Source: Butyrivibrio sp. AE2015 (GTDB lineage: Bacteria > Bacillota > Clostridia > Lachnospirales > Lachnospiraceae). Taken from it: a stretch of 64,000 bases of DNA. A program made the position numbers and the translations under genes. Location of the stretch: the NCBI RefSeq assembly GCF_000420825.1, contig NZ_ATVR01000005.1:1-64000 (forward strand), given 5' to 3'. The notes under the pieces were generated by a model. It was not told the DNA's origin. It ran no database searches and worked only from the letters and a program-made list of their open reading frames with translations. Positions 3,290 through 58,105 of the stretch are shown in pieces. Positions within the stretch are counted from its first letter, which is position 1, and every line of letters begins with the position of its first letter.

Positions 3290-4348
3290 TTAAAGTTTAT
3301 GGAAAACGATACAGTTAGGTCTTGATACAGGAAGCTCAGGTCCGTTCATGACCATTGTTCCCTTGTCCATATCAACTGTAAAGAATGTAAGTGTATCTGA
3401 CTCGTGATTAAGAGATACAAGGTGCTTGTTGTCAGGGAAAAGAGCTGCATCCTTAGGATACTCACCTGCAACAGGAAGCTGGATCTTATTAGTGATAAGT
3501 CCTGTCTCTTTATCTACTTTAAATACAAGTGCATTGTTTTCACCTGCTGTTGAACTTACAAGATAATTGTAGTCCTCTGAGAAGGTAAGTGCGCTGCTTG
3601 CAACACCGATTGAATCAGCCTCTTCAGAAGTTGATACTGACTGAATCCTTTCAAATTCAGGATCTCCGTTCTTATCTTCATAAGAATAAACTTCTATAGA
3701 GCACTTCTGCTCAAGACAAACATAAAGGAATTTGCCCTCCTTTGAAAACTGCATATGTCTAGGAGATGATTCCTGATCGCAGTGGATCACATCAACTTCT
3801 TTTATCTTTCCTGTTTCCATATCAAGTGAATAAACATTGATCCTGTCCATTCCAAGATCTGCTGCAAGAAGATACTTGTTGTCTTTTGTAACCTTGATGC
3901 ACTGAACATGAGGAACATGATTACGTCCTGCTGCAGTACCAAGGCCCTTGTGATATTTCTCATCAGTGATCTCACCGATGCTGCCATCCTTATTAAGTCT
4001 CAATATTGTAACCTTGCCATCATGATAGCCTGCAGTAATAAGGAACTTATCACTCTGATCCATATTGAGGTAGCAACCACGCATACCATTGATAGAAGCC
4101 TCATTTAAAAATTCAAGGCTTCCGTCAGGAAGAATATGATAAGACTCTACTCCTGCATCAGTTATGGAATAAAGAGTTTTATTGTCATGTGAAATTCCAA
4201 TATAAGAAGAATTGGTTATTTCAACCTTCTGCTTTTCATAAAGCCTTCCATTCTCAAGATCTACATCATAAATTCTGATTCCATACTTTGTGCCCAGTCC
4301 GGATGTATAACTTGACACATAAGCTACGTATTTATCTTTACCAGCCAT
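3290..4348 (-). CDS. Lactonase-family beta-propeller (6-phosphogluconolactonase-like)
   Basis: The 352-residue protein belongs to the lactonase (Pgl) seven-bladed beta-propeller family, whose characterised members hydrolyse 6-phosphogluconolactone. Repeating blade segments such as GCYLNMDQSDKFLITAGYHDG, PRHMQFSKEGKFLYVC and PKDAALFPDNKHLVSLN recur roughly every 50 residues. A longer frame opens with GTG at 4393, but AGGAGG precedes the ATG at 4348 with about 10 nt spacing, so I start there (MAGKDKYVAY). No pentose-phosphate gene is adjacent. In propeller families substrate cannot be assigned from sequence alone, so the lactonase label is a family name. Confidence 0.85.
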   Translation of the reverse strand: MAGKDKYVAYVSSYTSGLGTKYGIRIYDVDLENGRLYEKQKVEITNSSYIGISHDNKTLYSITDAGVESYHILPDGSLEFLNEASINGMRGCYLNMDQSDKFLITAGYHDGKVTILRLNKDGSIGEITDEKYHKGLGTAAGRNHVPHVQCIKVTKDNKYLLAADLGMDRINVYSLDMETGKIKEVDVIHCDQESSPRHMQFSKEGKFLYVCLEQKCSIEVYSYEDKNGDPEFERIQSVSTSEEADSIGVASSALTFSEDYNYLVSSTAGENNALVFKVDKETGLITNKIQLPVAGEYPKDAALFPDNKHLVSLNHESDTLTFFTVDMDKGTMVMNGPELPVSRPNCIVFHKL

Positions 4349-4407
4349 TACTAGTTTGCCTCCTAGAATTACGTATTTTCTACATTCTATCACAAGAAAT
4401 CAAAACT

Positions 4408-5505
4408 TTAAACGTCTTTTGCTTTATACTCTGCAATAACTTCCTTGATCCTGTCCTGTGGTCTTACAAGTTTATACATGGATTTTCCTCTATTTAAGGT
4501 GTCTATGGCAGATGCTATATACCTGTTCATATTGACGCTGTAATAGTATTCTTTACTTAGCAGTTCTTCTTTCTGATAAATAAGATTAGTTGTAAATATC
4601 TTTTCAAAAAAGCCATTTTCATATGCTTCATCAAATTCCTTAAAGCCATAAGAAAACAGACCAAAGGTTGCAAAAATAAATACTCTTTTTGCGCCTCTAT
4701 CCTTGAGCTGCCTGCAGACATCAAGCATACTCTTGCCTGAAACGATCATATCATCAATTACGATCGCATCCATACCACTTATGTCGCCGCCGCAGAAATC
4801 ATGCGCAATTATGGGATTCATCCCATCAACAACACGGCTGTAATCCCTTCTTTTATAAAACATACCAAGATTAACGCCATAAACGGAAGAAAGAAATACC
4901 GCTCTCTCAGTTGCTCCCTCATCAGGTGCTATGATAAGGAGATGCTCCGAATCAATTTCAATATCATCATACTCAGTCAAAAGAGCCTGGGTAAACTGTA
5001 AAGTTGGAGAAATATTCTCAATACCATTTAAAGGAAGTACATTTTGCATTCTTGGATCATGGGCATCAAAGGTGATCAGATTATCAACCCCAAGCAGCTC
5101 TAATTCTCTTAGCATAAGAGCACAGTCAAGGGATTCCCTCAAAACCTTTCTGTGCTGCCTGCTTTCATAAAGAAACGGCATAACCACAGTAATGGATTTT
5201 GCTTTACCATTGCAGGCGCCAATAGCCCTCTTAAGATCAGCATAATGATCGTCGGGAGACATTCTGTTATACTCTCCGTCGAATTTGTACTTTATAGAAT
5301 TGTTGCACACATCCACCAGGATAAAAATATCCTTTTCCCTGACAGATTCTTTTAACACAGCTTTACCTTCACCGCTTGAAAATCTTGGGCATATACATTC
5401 AATTAGAAAACTGTCTGCGCCGCGCCACTCGCAAAGGATCTTATCGATTCTTTTTGCTGATTCTGCAAATGATTCAAGAGCTATAATTCCTAATCCACCA
5501 CTCAT
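4408..5505 (-). CDS. prs: Ribose-phosphate pyrophosphokinase-like protein
   Basis: PRPP synthetases make 5-phosphoribosyl-1-pyrophosphate from ribose-5-phosphate and ATP. Family features are present: an N-terminal ligand region with RFSSGEGKAVLKESVR (about 41-56), YESRQHRK (113-120), FDAHDPRMQN (146-155) and the PRPP-binding loop IVIDDMIVSGKS (248-259). At 365 residues it is longer than the usual ~315, and the loop differs from the common VDDMIDTAGT, lacking the third acidic residue. It may therefore be a divergent second PRPP synthetase. A longer frame begins at 5559, but GAGGTG sits 5 nt before the ATG at 5505. Its promoter lies within a large palindrome (5545-5579), so it is probably regulated. 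Confidence 0.85.
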   Translation of the reverse strand: MSGGLGIIALESFAESAKRIDKILCEWRGADSFLIECICPRFSSGEGKAVLKESVREKDIFILVDVCNNSIKYKFDGEYNRMSPDDHYADLKRAIGACNGKAKSITVVMPFLYESRQHRKVLRESLDCALMLRELELLGVDNLITFDAHDPRMQNVLPLNGIENISPTLQFTQALLTEYDDIEIDSEHLLIIAPDEGATERAVFLSSVYGVNLGMFYKRRDYSRVVDGMNPIIAHDFCGGDISGMDAIVIDDMIVSGKSMLDVCRQLKDRGAKRVFIFATFGLFSYGFKEFDEAYENGFFEKIFTTNLIYQKEELLSKEYYYSVNMNRYIASAIDTLNRGKSMYKLVRPQDRIKEVIAEYKAKDV

Positions 5506-48412: not shown

Positions 48413-49387
48413 TCATCTGATACCAAGATAGATAAAAAGACAAACAAGCGCAAACAGCGCTTCTGTGGCATGCATTAAACTGATACTTCTCAAAACATCT
48501 TCTTTATCTATCAGCTTTATATCATCACCGATAAAAGGTTTGTCCTTAATCTTGCCAAAATATGAAGCAGGACCTGCAAGTCTAAGACCAAGGGCTCCTG
48601 CGCACACACTCTCACACTGGGCTGAATTGGGACTCTCATGATTATACCTGTCCCTGCGCCATATCCTGAAAGCTCCAAAAGGATCATAGCCAAGTATAAG
48701 AGCCGAAAAGATCATATATATAGCACTTATTCTAGCCGGAATGAAAGCAAGAATATCATCCAGCCTTGCTGCTACAGTGCCAAAATACCTGTATTTATCA
48801 TTTTTATAGCCGATCATTGAATCCATTGTACTAACTGCCTTATAAAGAAAAGCAAGCACCGGTCCGCCGATGATAAGATAAAACATCGGACATATTACTC
48901 CGTCGTTGGTGTTCTCAGAAACAGTTTCAACTGTCGCACGAAGTATCCCTGCTTCGTCAAGGCTCTGTGTATCTCTCCCAACGATCATTGAAAGAGCTTT
49001 TCTTGCACTCTCAATATCTTTTGGAAGTCCGGCAAGAGGCCTGTAAACATCCATCGCTGCATCCCTTAAGCTTTTTCCGGCAATTGCAAAAGATGACAGC
49101 ACACTCATTATCAAAACTCCAAACACACGGCCTATTTTAAATGAAATATACGCAATAAGTCCTGTGACACCTCCGGTAATTGCAAGAACTATTATTACTA
49201 AAAGTGCTCCTTTTGCTCTTTTTTTCTCATTGGAATCATCTTCTTTAAGCAATCTCTTTTCCAAACATGATATAAGAGCACCGATTGCCTGCACAGGATG
49301 ATAAAGCCAATTTGGATCGCCGAAACACATATCAAGCGTAATTCCAATCAAAAAAGAAACCAAAAAATCCCTGTAAAATAAAGCCAC
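48413..49387 (-). CDS. cbiB: Adenosylcobinamide-phosphate synthase
   Basis: CbiB (called CobD in some species) attaches aminopropanol phosphate to adenosylcobyric acid. The 324-residue membrane protein has about four to five spans; DMCFGDPNWLYHPVQAIG at the start and ETVSENTNDGVICPMFYLIIG are signatures, as is FGTVAARLDDILAFIPAR. A GTG start has GAGGAG at 6 nt spacing. It lies 50 bp after cobS, within the minus-strand cobalamin cluster. Confidence 0.94.
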   Translation of the reverse strand: MALFYRDFLVSFLIGITLDMCFGDPNWLYHPVQAIGALISCLEKRLLKEDDSNEKKRAKGALLVIIVLAITGGVTGLIAYISFKIGRVFGVLIMSVLSSFAIAGKSLRDAAMDVYRPLAGLPKDIESARKALSMIVGRDTQSLDEAGILRATVETVSENTNDGVICPMFYLIIGGPVLAFLYKAVSTMDSMIGYKNDKYRYFGTVAARLDDILAFIPARISAIYMIFSALILGYDPFGAFRIWRRDRYNHESPNSAQCESVCAGALGLRLAGPASYFGKIKDKPFIGDDIKLIDKEDVLRSISLMHATEALFALVCLFIYLGIR

Positions 49388-49437: not shown

Positions 49438-50217
49438 CTACATCAAAAGCCAGATCATATATACAAAAGAGGAAATCAATTCACAAATGCAGACAAAATA
49501 GCCCGCAATGTCTCCTGTTATTCCTCCGAATTTGTCATTTGCCATACGATGATAATATACAAAAACTAATAATGAAGCAATAGTTTCCAACACTCCGGCA
49601 ATTTTTCCAAAATAAATCATAAATAAAGAGCAAATTATAGCCTCAACGATAAGCAGAACTCTGCACCACTCCTTTTGAGCCCCTTCTGCAAAAGTGTACA
49701 AAGTTCCATTACTTTTAGCACATTTAAAGCTAACCACTGCTATTCCGGAAAGGATACGGGAATAGAAAAATATAAGTGCCCATGCAAAAAACATATCAGA
49801 ACCTGTATGAGCACTTATAATTGTCAGTGCCGTAGCAAAGAAAATACAGCCGTATAAAAGAAGTCTTATCACAGCAAAAGCCCCAATATGAGGGTCTTTT
49901 AGAATCTCTAGCCTCTTTTCCATGTCCCTGTATGAACTTAGCGCATCACTGGTGTCCATATATCCGTCTAAATGTATCCCTCCGGATACTATAACCGGAA
50001 CTGCCAAAATAAAAAGCGTTTTGGCAACATCCGGAACAGACGCCAAATAACCTGTAAAGAGATAACTCAGCAAGGACATGGCAAAAGAAATAACAAGACC
50101 AACTAATGGAAAAAAGCAGATGCTATATCTCATGTTTTCTTTCTTCCACTCAAATACTGGCATAGGTATCCGTGAGTACATGGAAAAAGCAATTGCAATA
50201 GATTTTAAGACATTCAT
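49438..50217 (-). CDS. cobS: Adenosylcobinamide-GDP ribazoletransferase (cobalamin synthase)
   Basis: CobS joins adenosylcobinamide-GDP with alpha-ribazole (phosphate) at the membrane to complete cobalamin. The 259-residue protein has about six spans and the conserved GGIHLDGYMDTSDAL and KDPHIGAFAV segments with metal-binding aspartates. A longer frame begins at 50238, but GAGG lies 9 nt before the ATG at 50217, which overlaps the cobU stop codon (ATGA) and implies translational coupling. Confidence 0.94.
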   Translation of the reverse strand: MNVLKSIAIAFSMYSRIPMPVFEWKKENMRYSICFFPLVGLVISFAMSLLSYLFTGYLASVPDVAKTLFILAVPVIVSGGIHLDGYMDTSDALSSYRDMEKRLEILKDPHIGAFAVIRLLLYGCIFFATALTIISAHTGSDMFFAWALIFFYSRILSGIAVVSFKCAKSNGTLYTFAEGAQKEWCRVLLIVEAIICSLFMIYFGKIAGVLETIASLLVFVYYHRMANDKFGGITGDIAGYFVCICELISSFVYMIWLLM

Positions 50218-51140
50218 AGCTTTATTCCTCTTTTGCAAAAAACTCTGTAAACATCTGAATGTGCAGCGATCTTCTGCATGAATCTTCCCGCTTCTTCGCG
50301 ATAGCGCCTTATCAGCTCATCCATGGGCACTACACCGCAAAAGATGTCGTCTATTATAATAACAGAATTTTCAGGAAAACTGTTAACAGGTTCTTTCTCA
50401 TTCTTTATACAGGCATAGACATACCTTTCAATATGCTCATAGCACCTGTATCCCAATGGAATCTCGGCATCATCTTCCTCAAAGGTATATATTTCTTCCG
50501 GTAAAATACCAAAATTCTCGATCACATAATCTCTTTTTCCCTGAAAAGCACCACCTAAAACAAGAACATTTCTATTTTTTGTTTTGGTCTCTATAACTGA
50601 TCTTCCTTTTATAAGCATCTCTTTTCCTGCAGCGATCTCAATAGCTTTATCAGACAGGCCGCAAAGCCTTTCTTCCAAAAATGCAAGTCCATTTCTATAC
50701 AGCTGCGTATATTCATCATACATAGCAGCGTCGCTTTGAATATAGTCACTAACTATAACAAGATTTAAAACTCTGTCATTCAAAGCTTCGATATCCTTTA
50801 GTACCTTCCCGGCAGCTTCTTTAAAAATAACAAACCTGCCATCATCTGAAGTTTTGAACATTTCATTGGACAAAAGAGCTGTGAGACTATCCAAAAGAAC
50901 TGTCGCATTTTCAGGGATCTTTTCTATTACAGCATCAATATTCCTACCTTTTTCTATTGTAAAAAAAGGCATATCTTTCCTGCTGTCTATATGCTTTTTT
51001 ATACGCTCTTTGTCCTCATTGTCAGAGGCGATCATGGTCGCAAGGTAGTAGAGGTTTTCACCTTTTGAAAGTTCAAAGGCTATAGTTTCAGCTTTTGAAG
51101 ACTTACCATTTTTGCAGCCACCTGTAATTAGTACAAGCAC
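50214..51140 (-). CDS. cobU: CobU, adenosylcobinamide kinase/guanylyltransferase with a second CobU-like half
   Basis: CobU phosphorylates adenosylcobinamide and forms its GDP ester. Typical CobU is ~180 residues; this is 308. The N-terminal half keeps P-loop GGCKNGKSSKAE (7-18) and the guanylylated histidine context RIKKHIDSRK (His50), but its end has lost the NEVG-GIVPEN...RR-R motif (it reads SDYIQSDAAM). The C-terminal half (about 190-308) has a degraded P-loop (GGAFQGKRDY, 196-205) yet keeps CGVVPMDELIRRYREEAGR. The two halves therefore look complementary. It starts with GTG and sits between cobT and cobS. Confidence 0.88.
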   Translation of the reverse strand: MLVLITGGCKNGKSSKAETIAFELSKGENLYYLATMIASDNEDKERIKKHIDSRKDMPFFTIEKGRNIDAVIEKIPENATVLLDSLTALLSNEMFKTSDDGRFVIFKEAAGKVLKDIEALNDRVLNLVIVSDYIQSDAAMYDEYTQLYRNGLAFLEERLCGLSDKAIEIAAGKEMLIKGRSVIETKTKNRNVLVLGGAFQGKRDYVIENFGILPEEIYTFEEDDAEIPLGYRCYEHIERYVYACIKNEKEPVNSFPENSVIIIDDIFCGVVPMDELIRRYREEAGRFMQKIAAHSDVYRVFCKRGIKL

Positions 51141-51142
51141 TC

Positions 51143-52249
51143 TTATTTCTCCTGTTTTCTTATTTCTTCCAGATAATCATCACATATGCCGCCGCTTTTA
51201 AATGTTCCCATATTGCAGACAAAAGCACAGGCGGCCTCCATTATCTGAAACGCCACAACACAGCCGCTTCCTTCTCCAAGGCCCATATCAAGATTAAACC
51301 AGGGCTTAAGATCAAGAAGCGAGATTGCAATTTTGTAGCCCTTTTCTTTCGACTCATGAGATGGAAAAAGATATCCCGAAACCTTTTCGTTTAATCTGCT
51401 GGCACAAAGAGCCGCAACCACTGATATGTAACCATCTATCACAACAGGGATCCTGTTTTTAGCGGCGCCTAAAAAGACTCCGCACATAGCTGCTATATCA
51501 AGGCCTCCAAGCTCAGAAAGTATATCAATTATATCTCCATTATCTGAGCTGCTATTTAAAAACCTCTTTACAGCTCTTTCAACAACGCTTATCTTTTTCT
51601 GAAAGGCCTCATCTGTAAGGCCACCTCCTCTTCCAACCAAATCTCCGGGCAAAGCCCCTGAAATGGCAGCTAAAACCGCAGCACTTGTTGTGGTGTTTCC
51701 AATCCCCATCTCTCCAACACCCAAAATATCTACATAATCCAAAGCAGCCCTGTCTGCGCTTTCCATTCCTACAAGGATTGCTCTTATAACCTCTTCTCTT
51801 GTAAGAGCAGGCTCTATAGCAATGTTCCCGGTGCCTTTCCTTATTCTCTTGTTAAGGACCTCTTCGCAGTTATAATCTGTTGCGATCCCAACATCAACGA
51901 TTTCAGTCTCAACCCCAAAATGCTTAGCCATTGAAGACATACCGGTAATGCCTTTTGTCATATTAACAGCCTGACTTGCCGTTACAGAAACAGGAGCTGA
52001 AGAAACACCCTCACAGGTTACGCCATTATCTGCACACAGCACGATTATGCGCTTTTTCTTAAGTGTATTTTTAACCTTCCCTGTGATACCAGCCAGTGAA
52101 ATTGCTATCTTTTCAAGCTTTCCAAGGCTTTTTGGAGGTTTGATAAGGCTGTCGATATATTCTGAAGCTTCGCGCATTTTTTCAGAATCTACGCTATCTA
52201 TATCTTTAATTTTTTCCTTAAGTTCTAATTCAAAATTCAATGTCTGCAC
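51143..52249 (-). CDS. cobT: Nicotinate-nucleotide-dimethylbenzimidazole phosphoribosyltransferase
   Basis: CobT activates the lower-ligand base (such as dimethylbenzimidazole) to alpha-ribazole phosphate using nicotinate mononucleotide. The 368-residue length fits. MGIGNTTTSAAVLAAISG and NLDMGLGEGSGCVVAF, with the catalytic glutamate, are signatures. It probably starts at GTG 52249, 1 bp past the stop of the aminotransferase-like gene. Substrate range for lower ligands cannot be told from sequence. Confidence 0.95.
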   Translation of the reverse strand: MQTLNFELELKEKIKDIDSVDSEKMREASEYIDSLIKPPKSLGKLEKIAISLAGITGKVKNTLKKKRIIVLCADNGVTCEGVSSAPVSVTASQAVNMTKGITGMSSMAKHFGVETEIVDVGIATDYNCEEVLNKRIRKGTGNIAIEPALTREEVIRAILVGMESADRAALDYVDILGVGEMGIGNTTTSAAVLAAISGALPGDLVGRGGGLTDEAFQKKISVVERAVKRFLNSSSDNGDIIDILSELGGLDIAAMCGVFLGAAKNRIPVVIDGYISVVAALCASRLNEKVSGYLFPSHESKEKGYKIAISLLDLKPWFNLDMGLGEGSGCVVAFQIMEAACAFVCNMGTFKSGGICDDYLEEIRKQEK

Positions 52250-52250
52250 C

Positions 52251-53318
52251 TCAGATAAGTTTCTCTATAACCTCTATGAGCTTTTTGTTGTCTTCATGTC
52301 CTCTTATGGCTATTCTATAGTATTCATCTGTAAGTCCCGGGAAATTGGAGCTTTTCCGAAGATATATCCCCTTACTCAAAAGCTTCTCATAAAAACCATC
52401 TTTTGCATTCACCTTTATCAAAAGGAAATTTACATCTGAAGGAAATACTCTGATTCCAAGCCTTTCAAGTTCTCTTTTCAGGTATTCTCTTTCATTTTTA
52501 ATATCCAAAAGACACTTTTTTATATCAAGATCACGATCTAACAGCTTTGCACCGGCAACCTGAGCCAGCCCCGAAATACTCCATTCAGGCTGCATAAGCC
52601 TCATCTTTTCTACGACCTTTTCATCACTACATATGCCATATCCAAGTCTGATCCCCGGTATAGAATAAATCTTGGTAAAAGACCTGATGATAAAAAGATT
52701 CTTATGATCATCTATGAAACATATGAGGCTCTTATCCCTTTTGTCATCAGTAAAATCAATAAAAGACTCATCAACCACAAGAAAAGCCCCATATTTTTTG
52801 CAAATATCAAGCACATCCTTCAAGGTATCTTTTTTAATTACTCTTCCTGTCGGATTATTGGGATTACAGATATAAACAGCACTGTTTTCCTGGCCTTCGT
52901 AATCTTTTACAAATCTCTCTATTTCTTTTAACCGGCTTTCACCAAATAAAAAGTCATCCTTCTCATCAAGAAAAAGGTAGCTTACGCTAGCGCCTTTCGC
53001 CCAAAGAGCTCTCTCATATCCGGAAAAAGTAGGCTCTATAATAAGTGCATTTTTTATATCAAGGCAATAAGGCAAAAGCGTTATGATCTGAGATGCACCA
53101 TTTCCAATAACTATATAGTCTGCTGAAATATCATTTTTATCAGCTACTTTAAGAACAAGGTCATTACTCTCCCTGTCAGGATACAAACAAGTAGCCTTTT
53201 GAATCTCCTCTTTCGTAAACTCAAGTTCATCTGCAAAAAAGTTGGTATTAACGCTAAAATCAATCAGCGAATCACTCTTAATTTCACCGCCATGATAATA
53301 ATCTTTGTTTTCTTCCAT
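52251..53318 (-). CDS. cobD: Threonine-phosphate decarboxylase-like PLP enzyme (CobD)
   Basis: CobD makes (R)-1-amino-2-propanol phosphate, the linker added by CbiB. The 355-residue protein is a fold-type I PLP enzyme related to histidinol-phosphate aminotransferase: CNPNNPTG, VDESFIDF and the PLP-lysine segment SFTKIYSIPGIRLGY are present. Its place between btuD and cobT favours CobD over HisC. It starts 9 bp after btuD. Confidence 0.9.
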   Translation of the reverse strand: MEENKDYYHGGEIKSDSLIDFSVNTNFFADELEFTKEEIQKATCLYPDRESNDLVLKVADKNDISADYIVIGNGASQIITLLPYCLDIKNALIIEPTFSGYERALWAKGASVSYLFLDEKDDFLFGESRLKEIERFVKDYEGQENSAVYICNPNNPTGRVIKKDTLKDVLDICKKYGAFLVVDESFIDFTDDKRDKSLICFIDDHKNLFIIRSFTKIYSIPGIRLGYGICSDEKVVEKMRLMQPEWSISGLAQVAGAKLLDRDLDIKKCLLDIKNEREYLKRELERLGIRVFPSDVNFLLIKVNAKDGFYEKLLSKGIYLRKSSNFPGLTDEYYRIAIRGHEDNKKLIEVIEKLI

Positions 53319-53327
53319 AAATAAACC

Positions 53328-54101
53328 TTATATCCAATGTGAATACTGCTTTTTCATATACTGCTTTACATCAATATCAAAAGCCTCGACTAGGTACTTG
53401 CTTTCTATAAGCTCCTCTTTACTTCCGTCAGCAAGAATTTTTCCATTTTTAAGCAAAATAAGCTTATCTGAGGCTTCCAACGCAATATTGATGTCATGAA
53501 AAACACCTATGAGTGTATGTTTTTTGCTCTCTTTTTTCCAATCAGAAAGGTAACTTAGAAATTCAGACTGATATTTAAGATCCAAATGATTGGTGGGCTC
53601 ATCCAAAATGATAATATCAGTATCCTGAGCCATGGTCCTGGCCAGAAACACTCTTTGGAGCTGACCTCCGGATAACTGGCTTATCTGCCTGTCTCTAATA
53701 TCTTCAAGGCCATATTCTCTAAGGCTTTTATATACAATCTCTTTGTCACGGCTATTGGCAATTCCAAAAACATTGTTGGAATATAGATACCTTCCAAGCA
53801 TGACCGTTTCTTCGACAGTATATGAAAAATAGATGTCAGAAAACTGCATCATTACAGAAATCTTTTTTGCTATATCTTTTCTCTTAAGATTTCTTACTTC
53901 TTTATTGCCAAGAAGGATGCTTCCGTCATATGAGAGCATGCCTGCAAGAGTCTTGATAAGCGTAGTTTTACCGCATCCATTTGCACCCAAAACAGCAATA
54001 CTTTCCCCTTCATTTACACCAAAAGAGATATCCTTTATAACCGGGTTATCACCAGGTCTTTTTCCATATCCGCAGATCAGATTCTTACACTCAAGCAGCA
54101 T
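53328..54101 (-). CDS. btuD: Vitamin B12/iron-chelate ABC transporter ATP-binding protein
   Basis: The 257-residue ATPase belongs to the FecE/BtuD family. Walker A GANGCGKTT (about 39-47), signature LSGGQLQRVFLART, Walker B IIILDEPTNHLDL and the switch histidine in GVFHDIN are intact. It lies 3 bp after the permease gene and before cobalamin synthesis genes. The context favours corrinoid over siderophore uptake. Confidence 0.92.
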   Translation of the reverse strand: MLLECKNLICGYGKRPGDNPVIKDISFGVNEGESIAVLGANGCGKTTLIKTLAGMLSYDGSILLGNKEVRNLKRKDIAKKISVMMQFSDIYFSYTVEETVMLGRYLYSNNVFGIANSRDKEIVYKSLREYGLEDIRDRQISQLSGGQLQRVFLARTMAQDTDIIILDEPTNHLDLKYQSEFLSYLSDWKKESKKHTLIGVFHDINIALEASDKLILLKNGKILADGSKEELIESKYLVEAFDIDVKQYMKKQYSHWI

Positions 54102-54104
54102 TTA

Positions 54105-55127
54105 TTATCTCTTACCTCTAAAATATATATATGCAAAAAACGGTGCTCCAACCAGTGCTGTAATAGCCCCAACGGGTATCTCCTGCGGAGCAAGTACAGT
54201 TCTCGACAACATATCTGCAAAAGCCATAAAGGCCCCGCCCATTACAAAGGACATAGGAATCACATATTTATGTTTTGAACCAAATAAACGTCTTACGATA
54301 TGAGGAATTGTGAGATCAACAAAGCCAATGATACCTGAAAAGCAAACAGCTGCTCCTGTCAAAAACGTTGAAACAGCCAAAAGAAAAACTTTTACTTTCT
54401 TTGTCTCAACTCCGATGCTCATGGCCTCTTCCTCTCCAAAGGTCATAATATCAAGTTCCCTGACAAAGAGACATATTATAAGTGTTCCCAGCACTGCACA
54501 CACGCTCAAAACAGCCACATGTATCCATCTTCTTCCGGAAAATGAACCCATCTGCCATAAAATAAGTCTCTGCATGTGTTCACTGTTCAAAGCACTTATA
54601 AGAGTCAAAATAGCATTTACAAAAAGAGAAAAGACCATTCCGAACAGAATGATCGTATGATTGCTCATGTTATGATCCAGCCTTCCGGACACAGCAATAA
54701 CAAAAAACACTGTAAAAAGTCCTGCCAAAAAGCCTGCAGCAGGTAGCAGAAAAAAGCCAAGTAATGAACTTGTTATTCCGGAAGTAATAACGATTGCAGC
54801 TCCTAAAGATGCACCGGCAGAAACGCCAAGAGTATAGGATGAGGCAAGGGGGTTTTGCAAAAGAGACTGGATCACTGCCCCGCTTACCGAAAGAGCTGCA
54901 CCAACAAAAAAAGCGGTCAAGGCTCTGGGTATCCTTATATCCCAGAGTATTGAGATATAAGAACCCTCAATACTCTTAGTCAAAGGCAGGTTAAAGAGCT
55001 TGTTTAACAGTACTGATACTATATCTGACGCTGGGATATATACACTGCCCAGCCCTATACTAAGGATCAGCACTAATATCGATATCAATACTAAAATTAC
55101 TATCTTAAGCTCTTTTTCTTTTTTCAT
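54105..55127 (-). CDS. btuC: Vitamin B12/iron-chelate ABC transporter permease
   Basis: The 340-residue FecCD/BtuC-family permease has about nine to ten membrane spans; SGAVIQSLLQNPLASSYTLG and IGFVDLTIPHIVRRLFGS are signature segments. A longer frame could open with TTG at 55175 inside btuF, but the ATG at 55127 begins 1 bp after the btuF stop, so coupled translation is likely. It forms the membrane part of the corrinoid importer with the flanking genes. Confidence 0.92.
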   Translation of the reverse strand: MKKEKELKIVILVLISILVLILSIGLGSVYIPASDIVSVLLNKLFNLPLTKSIEGSYISILWDIRIPRALTAFFVGAALSVSGAVIQSLLQNPLASSYTLGVSAGASLGAAIVITSGITSSLLGFFLLPAAGFLAGLFTVFFVIAVSGRLDHNMSNHTIILFGMVFSLFVNAILTLISALNSEHMQRLILWQMGSFSGRRWIHVAVLSVCAVLGTLIICLFVRELDIMTFGEEEAMSIGVETKKVKVFLLAVSTFLTGAAVCFSGIIGFVDLTIPHIVRRLFGSKHKYVIPMSFVMGGAFMAFADMLSRTVLAPQEIPVGAITALVGAPFFAYIYFRGKR

Positions 55128-55128
55128 A

Positions 55129-56214
55129 TTATGCAGCAGGCTGCTCCTTGCTATCTTCTGTGCTAAATGGATCAACTAACGCCTCATAGTAATCAGGATA
55201 AATATCCTTAGCCATCTCGATCATAGCACTTACAACATGATGATTTGGTCTGTTAACTGTATCATTATCAATCTGATATACAGCTTCTTCCTTAATAGCA
55301 GATACGTTCTCCCATCCACTCATCTTAAGAATAACATTTATAACATCATCTGTGTACATGTCAGCAGTAAGAATAACCTGTGGATCCATAGCTACAGCTG
55401 CTTCTTCTGTAAGTGCAGGCCACTGTGATTCTTCCTCTCCTGCAACATTAGTTGCTCCGATAAGACTTATCATCTCATTGATATAAGTATTTGAACCACA
55501 TGTATAAATTGTTGGTGAATCAGCAGATGGAGTAAAGAGTTCGAAAAGCACAGTCTTCTTCTCCTCTTCAGGAATAGTAGCAGCTATTTTTGATATCTCT
55601 TCAATAGTTGCTTCCATCTCTTTAACAATAGCCTCTGCAGCTTCACTTGTTGATGTAGCTGCTCCAATAAATCTGATATCATCAGAAATATCCTGAAGGC
55701 TTGCGCTGCTTGGAATATCAAGAACGCATACACCAGCCTCTTTTACAGCTGCAAAAACATCATCTCCATGGCTGGCACTCATACCTGTTGTGAAAACAAC
55801 ATCTGCGCCAAGAGCAATGATCTGCTCCTGATCAGGAGTCATCATGTCAAACTGTGGAATATCAGCACTAAGTGAATCTGCGTAGCTTGCATATGAATAT
55901 GTATCACATGCAACGATCTTATCACCAAGTCCAAGGTCTATAAGAATCTGTGTTGTTGAAGGAGCCATTGATACAATTGAGTTTACTTCTTCAGGAATTG
56001 TAACTTCATTGCCACTTCTATCAGTGGTTGGCTTTGCTGATACATCTGTATTTTCAGTGGATTCTGTCTGAAGAGTAGATGCTTCGCTGGTAGCTGTAAC
56101 ACTTTCCTCAGCTACTGTTTCTGAAACTGTTTCTGCTGTGGTATTTCCGCATCCAACAGCAAAAGTAGACATCATGGCAACAGCCATGACAATAGATAGA
56201 ATTTTCTTTTTCAT
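55129..56214 (-). CDS. btuF: Vitamin B12/iron-chelate ABC transporter substrate-binding lipoprotein
   Basis: The 361-residue protein has a lipoprotein signal (MKKKILSIVMAVAMMS) with lipobox FAVGC, a Ser/Thr/Glu-rich linker (about 25-63) and a class III (BtuF/FepB) binding domain starting RSGNEVTIPEEVNSIVSMAP. LGADVVFTTGMSASHG and FELFTPSADSPTIYTCGSN fit the family. GAGGGAG precedes the ATG. It is the first gene of the cobalamin cluster, behind a promoter and structured leader at 56242-56313. Confidence 0.9.
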   Translation of the reverse strand: MKKKILSIVMAVAMMSTFAVGCGNTTAETVSETVAEESVTATSEASTLQTESTENTDVSAKPTTDRSGNEVTIPEEVNSIVSMAPSTTQILIDLGLGDKIVACDTYSYASYADSLSADIPQFDMMTPDQEQIIALGADVVFTTGMSASHGDDVFAAVKEAGVCVLDIPSSASLQDISDDIRFIGAATSTSEAAEAIVKEMEATIEEISKIAATIPEEEKKTVLFELFTPSADSPTIYTCGSNTYINEMISLIGATNVAGEEESQWPALTEEAAVAMDPQVILTADMYTDDVINVILKMSGWENVSAIKEEAVYQIDNDTVNRPNHHVVSAMIEMAKDIYPDYYEALVDPFSTEDSKEQPAA

Positions 56215-57204: not shown

Positions 57205-57212
57205 TTAAAAAA

Positions 57213-57566
57213 TGGATTAGAGGGGAGTCGAACCCCTGTCCAAAAATTCATCCCCTGTACTTCTACTATCATAGCTTATTATTCCGAGATTCTTCATCTC
57301 TGTTCCCTCTTACCTGCGGTAACAAGCAACTACAAATAATCGGTAGCTTCATGATACGACCATAACCGCAAAGCTTAGGCTATGTCGTTTCCTACAAAGT
57401 TTGACGCCAGTTACCGAGTGTGTAGGTGCACACGGGCTGACGGGCTGCGCTTAGGCAGCGAGTGCTAAATTATCGTTAGCGTTTAATTTTAATTTGAGGT
57501 TTAACGCGACCATCCTGCGGATAGCTTCTCCAGCTTCAAAATCCCTGTCGAAACCTTTACTAACCC
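57213..57566 (-). ncRNA. ssrA: tmRNA (transfer-messenger RNA)
   Basis: tmRNA rescues stalled ribosomes together with SmpB by adding a degradation tag. The 3' end carries the T-arm GACAGGGGTTCGACTCCCC and an acceptor strand CTAATCC plus discriminator A (57213-57220). It pairs with GGGTTAG at the 5' end (57560-57566), followed by the conserved GGTTTCGACAGG. The tag frame at 57451-57480 reads ANDNLALAA then TAA if the resume codon is GCT, and the LALAA ending is the usual protease signal. CCA is not encoded. Length is about 354 nt. smpB lies directly upstream on the same strand. Confidence 0.95.
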
Positions 57567-57634: not shown

Positions 57635-58105
57635 TTATTTAAATTTGACCTTGAACTCTTTTTCTGCTTCTCTTTGCTGATCTTTCTTGGCCATATCTGC
57701 TCGTTTATCATAGAGCTTTTTACCTTTGGCAAGTCCAAGCTCCACCTTTACTCTGCCATTCTTAAAATAAACTTCAAGAGGAACCAAAGTGTATCCCTGA
57801 ACCATCTTCTGCTGATCAAGTTTTCTGATCTCAGCTTTATGTAAAAGAAGCCTCTTTACACGAAGGGGATCCTTATTAAAAATATTACCCTTTTCATATG
57901 GGCTTATGTTCATACCCATAATGAAAGCTTCCCCCTTATCAATACTGATCCAAGCTTCCTTGATACTACATTTTCCCTGTCTTATGGATTTAACTTCTGT
58001 TCCAAAAAGTTCGATACCTGCCTCATACTTCTCTTCTATAAAGTAGTCATGATATGCCTTTTTATTATTTGCTACCAGTTTTCTTGCCTTATTATCTTCT
58101 GCCAT
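57635..58105 (-). CDS. smpB: SsrA-binding protein
   Basis: SmpB binds tmRNA and delivers it to stalled ribosomes. The 156-residue length is normal. [36 protein letters not shown] and the basic C-terminal tail ending [12 protein letters not shown] are conserved. It lies between rnr and ssrA, the classic Firmicute order, and probably shares a transcript with rnr. Confidence 0.97.

Follow-up and report, generated by a model that had tools for sequence, protein, structure and literature searches.

A fused CobU with complementary motif loss between its two halves in Butyrivibrio, and its separate-gene counterparts in Clostridia

The late cobamide genes of the window

The window, that is, the whole stretch of 64,000 nucleotides analysed, carries on its minus strand a series of late cobamide genes encoding, in order, a CobD-like aminotransferase, CobT, a fused CobU (cobU-AB), CobS and CbiB:

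52251..53318, minus strand: aminotransferase whose best NCBIfam match is CobD (269.4 bits, under its cut-off of 290.55)
51143..52249, minus strand: cobT, upstream neighbour of cobU-AB
50214..51140, minus strand: cobU-AB, fused two-half CobU of 308 residues with a GTG start
49438..50217, minus strand: cobS, downstream neighbour of cobU-AB
48413..49387, minus strand: cbiB

The cobU-AB gene begins 2 bases past the cobT stop codon, and its own stop overlaps the ATG of cobS at position 50217 as ATGA; an alternative in-frame cobS start, a TTG at 50238, is the one given in the open-reading-frame list. The neighbouring cobT, cobS and cbiB are the late cobamide genes expected around an ordinary bifunctional CobU. 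The gene is present as a single copy in its genome, which also contains CbiD and is thus probably that of a de novo cobamide maker. An artefact of assembly or annotation that merged two adjacent genes is extremely improbable, given that a single open frame spans both halves (hereafter A and B) in five of five other searched genomes of the genus and in the named Butyrivibrio isolates. Butyrivibrio are the closest named relatives among the best 80 of 357 kept from a scan of named organisms with one pattern, the B motif, a scan blind to frequencies and to genomes having A only.

Immediately upstream of this series lies an ABC transporter set (ATPase, permease and binding protein; 53328-56214, minus strand), whose NCBIfam matches include BtuC, BtuD and BtuF, all under cut-off. 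A tmRNA gene (57210-57566, minus strand, 135 bits) was also detected, near an open frame (57635-58105) that resembles SmpB by eye.

Both halves belong to the CobU family

The sequence-only reading of this DNA had proposed that the protein consists of two CobU-like halves. Separate profile searches bore this out: against PF02283 (CobU/CobP), half A alone scored 97.7 bits and half B alone 33.3 bits, both above the cut-off of 27, and both halves are CobU by predicted fold as well. The AlphaFold2 model of the fused chain had a pLDDT of 91.8 and a pTM of 0.86, so the arrangement of its two domains is a confident prediction. An origin of the second half (residues 186-308 in the earlier reading) from a family other than CobU was checked, and was rejected by the profile match and the predicted fold. 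The features of the two halves are as follows:

50601..51140, minus strand: half A, residues 1-180, predicted full-length CobU fold
51099..51122, minus strand: P-loop of half A, residues 7-14, GGCKNGKS
50991..50993, minus strand: His50 codon of half A, aligned with His46 of Salmonella CobU
50571..50600, minus strand: linker, residues 181-190
50217..50570, minus strand: half B, residues 191-308, predicted shortened CobU fold
50532..50555, minus strand: P-loop-like GGAFQGKR of half B, residues 196-203, without Ser/Thr
50283..50339, minus strand: CGVVPMDELIRRYREEAGR of half B, residues 268-286, aligned with Salmonella CobU 138-156

The linker has a block mean pLDDT of 62 and 50% identity to a sister sequence. 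Half B is without the His-bearing region and keeps the C-terminal segment, and both A and B are under purifying selection.

Against NF004469 (PRK05800), the model of the bifunctional enzyme with an equivalog cut-off of 161 bits, the whole protein scored 108.4 bits, A 82.7 and B 30.8. Three A (80.0-104.8 bits) and three B (38.7-45.2 bits) encoded by separate genes, called split A and split B below, were also under 161, and one ordinary clostridial CobU scored 216.7 bits. The protein of the window is CobU by homology but scores too low for the curated model of the ordinary bifunctional enzyme. That Pfam CobU matches both halves would also suit a tandem of CobU domains, each complete and redundant with the other. 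This can practically be dismissed in view of the scores under 161 bits for the whole protein and for each half, the missing His region of B and the missing C-terminal motif residues of A.

Separate A and B genes

At 89 loci, A and B were found as separate genes, on one strand in 89/89, with A upstream in 88 and with a gap the size of one gene, usually cobS, in 81; A was present at every one of these split loci with B. Separate A and B genes around cobS are the common state. The order was also A then B in all 63 fused loci, and these, like the 93/89 split loci, contain some duplicate genomes (L001 is the window, and L068 and L104 come from one genome). In a set of 61 split-A loci, four had no B in the stretch analysed; for three of them (L020, L098 and L103), B lies on another contig, and no B was found in the genome of the fourth (L067, genome G253). 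In this last locus, A is fused to a domain of the siroheme type, Pfam NAD_binding_7 (3986-4975).

In the Lachnospiraceae, the family of the window, 299 genomes were searched and 185 matched the fused protein. These 185 CobU-bearing genomes were classed as follows: 162 have A and B, fused genes included (161 called from a strong B score and the match to the fused query, with part of the loci inspected, plus G072, whose B is part of a fusion with a CbiG-like protein); 17 are A-only (among them G296, so classed despite a B-profile match of E=2.5e-8 because its single CobU match is of A type); and six have an ordinary CobU. The A, B and C profiles were built from sequences that they later scored.

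In the class sample, at least 51 of 391 genomes had a B match of at least 72 bits, three of these matches being confined to the C-terminal part of the profile. Those that followed among the matches listed were at most 65 bits, covered the C-terminal part and were mostly frames already found as CobU. Among the matches listed, genome G508 had B and no second CobU match, and genomes G400, G422 and G436 had CobU matches and no B-profile match. In the phylum sample, 25 of 398 genomes had B matches of at least 67 bits, the next being 58.3, and A was beside or joined to B at 18 of the 20 loci inspected; the two loci without a visible A (L188 and L192) are both short and end on the side where A is expected. 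A divergent single CobU was also encountered (L094, 4956-5528, genome G658), which fits poorly to the A profile (37 bits) and to the ordinary profile (C, 105 bits) and whose His context is absent by eye.

In Vescimonas fastidiosa, Roseburia sp. 831b and [Eubacterium] eligens (three of three annotated records), A and B are both annotated as bifunctional adenosylcobinamide kinase/adenosylcobinamide-phosphate guanylyltransferase. Literature searches covering openly licensed PMC papers listed none seen to describe a split or two-part CobU.

Conserved residues are divided between A and B

An alignment of 36 ordinary CobU sequences has 53 conserved positions (Salmonella numbering), and these were compared in 89 split A and 86 split B sequences, a position being regarded as kept when conserved in at least 85%, similar residues allowed; the motif patterns and the 85-86% limits were picked after the alignments were viewed. 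Sixteen positions were kept only in A, all of them N-terminal, at or before position 123 (S13, E17, Y28, A30, T31, E38, R42, H46, R50, W54 as F, T56, E58, L78, D80, M85 and N88). Eleven were kept only in B, all C-terminal, at or after position 132 (E135, G137, G139, V141, P142, R148, D152, G155, R156, G174 and I175). Nine were kept in both and 17 in neither, R9 of the P-loop being one of the latter. The complementary loss suggested for the window's protein is confirmed for the two CobU-derived halves, with the P-loop and His on the side of A and G-x-V-P...R..R on the side of B.

The title of a paper cited in PMC8092220 gives His46 of Salmonella CobU as the guanylylation site. All 89 split A sequences have its equivalent, as have all 47 fused A and all 17 A-only sequences. 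Inspection of this column in B found no His, the column being a gap in 94% of split B and in 100% of fused B. None of 93 split A sequences matched a pattern that ends in G[ILV][VI]P, compared with all 89 split B and 28 of 30 ordinary CobU sequences. In 63 of 89 split B sequences the P-loop has the conserved variant form GG..QGK, and a strict Walker A motif was matched by 14 of 89.

In the protein of the window, half A has H50 at the position of Salmonella H46, and half B has P272, R278, R281, G285 and R286. The P-loop, the guanylylated His and GIVPEN...R..R do not all stand in one CobU domain but are divided between A and B, whereas Salmonella CobU (PDB 1CBU and 1C9K), a bifunctional adenosylcobinamide kinase/phosphate guanylyltransferase, has all the motifs in one protein. 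The sequence-only reading was to be given up if the first half alone aligned to full CobU through the GIVPEN region. Formally this is the case, A aligning to CobU over 178 columns that include this region; within the aligned region, however, the conserved residues are gone (G139 in 3% of split A, P142 in 3%, R148 or Lys in 20%), and the idea of complementary loss therefore survives.

Among CobU structures, the entries for Akkermansia muciniphila (9VIO, 9VIP, 9VIS and 9VIT) and Methylocapsa palsarum (8YEP and the related 8YES, 8YK8 and 8YKC, which we take to be from the same organism) contain one CobU chain sequence each, point mutants apart. By their titles, 8YES has a corrinoid and 8YKC has GDP as ligand; the ligand of Salmonella 1C9K is GMP. 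The Akkermansia protein (9VIO, 9VIT) is without the Pro of GIVP in the alignment and, since it has one kind of chain, this Pro is not needed in every CobU.

Fusion of A and B in more than one lineage

Trees were made by a quick method, with starred branches less reliable where rows are long. In the A tree, a single branch (100, starred) separates A from ordinary CobU. In the tree of the shared C-terminal block, a short alignment of 56 columns with seven of 100 branches starred, B forms one side of a branch (93). With the 47 fused sequences left after an 88% filter, the fused state needs seven changes on the A tree, at least three of them forced by starred branches, counts that cannot separate gain from loss.

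The fused groups comprise Butyrivibrio, Mediterraneibacter/Extibacter, a group in which A and B are joined to a phosphatase, and single lineages such as Cuneatibacter. At two fused loci without adjoining cobT or cobS, in Mediterraneibacter and Muricomes, cbiC-like and siroheme-like genes were seen by eye beside the fusion.

The sequence-only reading had placed duplication and fusion before subfunctionalisation. This order is not upheld: in many clostridial families, split genes show an identical pattern of complementary loss, A and ordinary CobU are parted by one branch, B falls on one side of another, and the fused state changes several times on the A tree. Fusion thus reads as secondary, and a scenario with fusion before loss was rejected. 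Fusion is read as derived because the split state is so widely spread; duplication and loss probably came first, with fusion later and more than once. As judged by sequence comparison, the homology of both halves, the complementary residue loss, the gene order and fusion in more than one lineage can be regarded as shown.

B is also found joined to other proteins. Triple fusions of A, B and a CobC-like histidine phosphatase occur in uncultured Lachnospiraceae (L112, 4998-6659; L117, 509-2152; L124, 4965-6533), B is joined to a CobC-like phosphatase in L069 (3179-4195), and a B-like domain ends a 480-residue open frame that resembles CbiG by eye in L248 (1465-2904, genome G072). Such joints, together with the membrane complex of late cobamide enzymes proposed in the excerpted text of PMC8092220, would be in line with B being a pseudo-enzyme, a non-catalytic partner serving to stabilise A or to link it with neighbours such as CobS or CobC. 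We consider this unlikely, since what B keeps goes beyond core positions and includes the very residues of ordinary CobU that A has lost (G139, P142, R148, D/E152, G155 and R156).

Genomes with A and no detected B

The A-only loci (L208-L217 and L230-L247) have late cobamide genes, no detected B and mostly degenerate A tails. Only two of the 17 A-only sequences keep the tail motif of A, which is present in 53 of the 89 split A and in 18 of the 47 fused A sequences, and the P-loop residues G11, K12 and S13, like His46, were kept in 17/17. On the tree, from which L067 was omitted and in which L244 was shifted to the rows with A and B, the A-only sequences form three groups, the starred branches being also compatible with one origin. 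Ten loci were viewed widely, one of them (L213) being read gene by gene: cobT and cobS are beside A in all ten and cbiB in nine. In one genome without detected B (G167), CobT and A share one open frame of 546 residues (L210, 1161-2798).

CbiD was found in 15 of the 17 A-only genomes, most of which thus probably make cobamides de novo. According to the excerpted text of PMC8123684, guanylyl transfer without CobU can be carried out by CobY, a non-homologous guanylyltransferase of a separate family. None of the 17 A-only genomes had a CobY match (TIGR00454) over the cut-off; CobY as the replacement in these genomes was rejected, as the 17 genomes gave weak matches only, the same as in 14 of 14 controls. 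Unless it has been replaced by another enzyme, A must work without B in these genomes, and A can apparently serve without B somewhere. This favours A doing the guanylyl transfer, B mattering for the kinase step or for efficiency.

One could go further and regard A alone as the guanylyltransferase, sufficient for the de novo route, with B required only for the kinase step of cobinamide salvage. The retained P-loop GKS and His46, the late genes adjoining A and the presence of CbiD without CobY are all in agreement with such a division, as is the statement, in the excerpted text of PMC8092220, that CbiB yields a phosphorylated intermediate that CobU then guanylylates. It remains doubtful, however: the scarcity of an intact Walker A motif in B makes it unlikely that B is a kinase by itself, and CbiD was present in all 11 tested genomes with A and B or a fused gene, so CbiD does not separate the states. 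No contrast between salvage and de novo synthesis that would explain B was found in these CbiD counts or at the two fused loci beside cbiC-like and siroheme-like genes.

A two-part CobU

The active site of homomeric CobU spans subunits, and the ordinary bifunctional enzyme is a homotrimer. The reading that we prefer, with a probability of roughly 0.6, is that of a two-part CobU in which A would bind the nucleotide and carry the GMP-accepting His, and B would complete the site. An old duplication of cobU would have given rise to a pair of genes, and the loss of conserved residues in one would have been complementary to that in the other, A retaining nucleotide binding (the P-loop) and the histidine that takes up GMP in Salmonella CobU, and B retaining the core fold together with the C-terminal G-x-V-P...R..R.E..GR segment. 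A and B may fit together as adjacent subunits do in the homomeric enzyme, forming from both partners one site that would run the adenosylcobinamide kinase and guanylyltransferase steps feeding CobS. The two genes would have been fused later in Butyrivibrio and some other lineages.

Physical pairing, a shared site and the assignment of the reaction that needs B are what we infer. In support of pairing, both halves are under purifying selection, the gene neighbourhood is fixed and fusions occur, and the confident domain placement in the predicted model of the fused chain agrees with it. The composite site is weakened by the A-only genomes (17 of 185), which argue that B is not always needed and which keep viable the other option of the sequence-only reading, kinase and guanylyl-transfer duties split between the halves. 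The class-sample genomes G508, G400, G422 and G436 and the Akkermansia CobU also count against it. For a large part of the Clostridia, we put at slightly better than even the chances of a still broader picture, in which CobU would be an obligate heteromer with one active site divided between paralogs by complementary loss, fused several times (as A-B and as A-B-phosphatase), with B dropped in at most three lineages to leave a reduced one-part enzyme, and in which the annotation as two bifunctional enzymes would be wrong for both genes.

Significance

CobU is used as a marker gene for calling cobamide makers from genomes, as mentioned in the excerpted text of PMC8123684. If CobU is a two-part enzyme in many gut and rumen Clostridia, neither a lone A nor a lone B should be scored as the whole enzyme, and an operon in which two genes are both labelled "bifunctional" misleads. 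Split, fused and A-only lineages also offer a natural experiment for assigning residues to the kinase or to the guanylyltransferase step.
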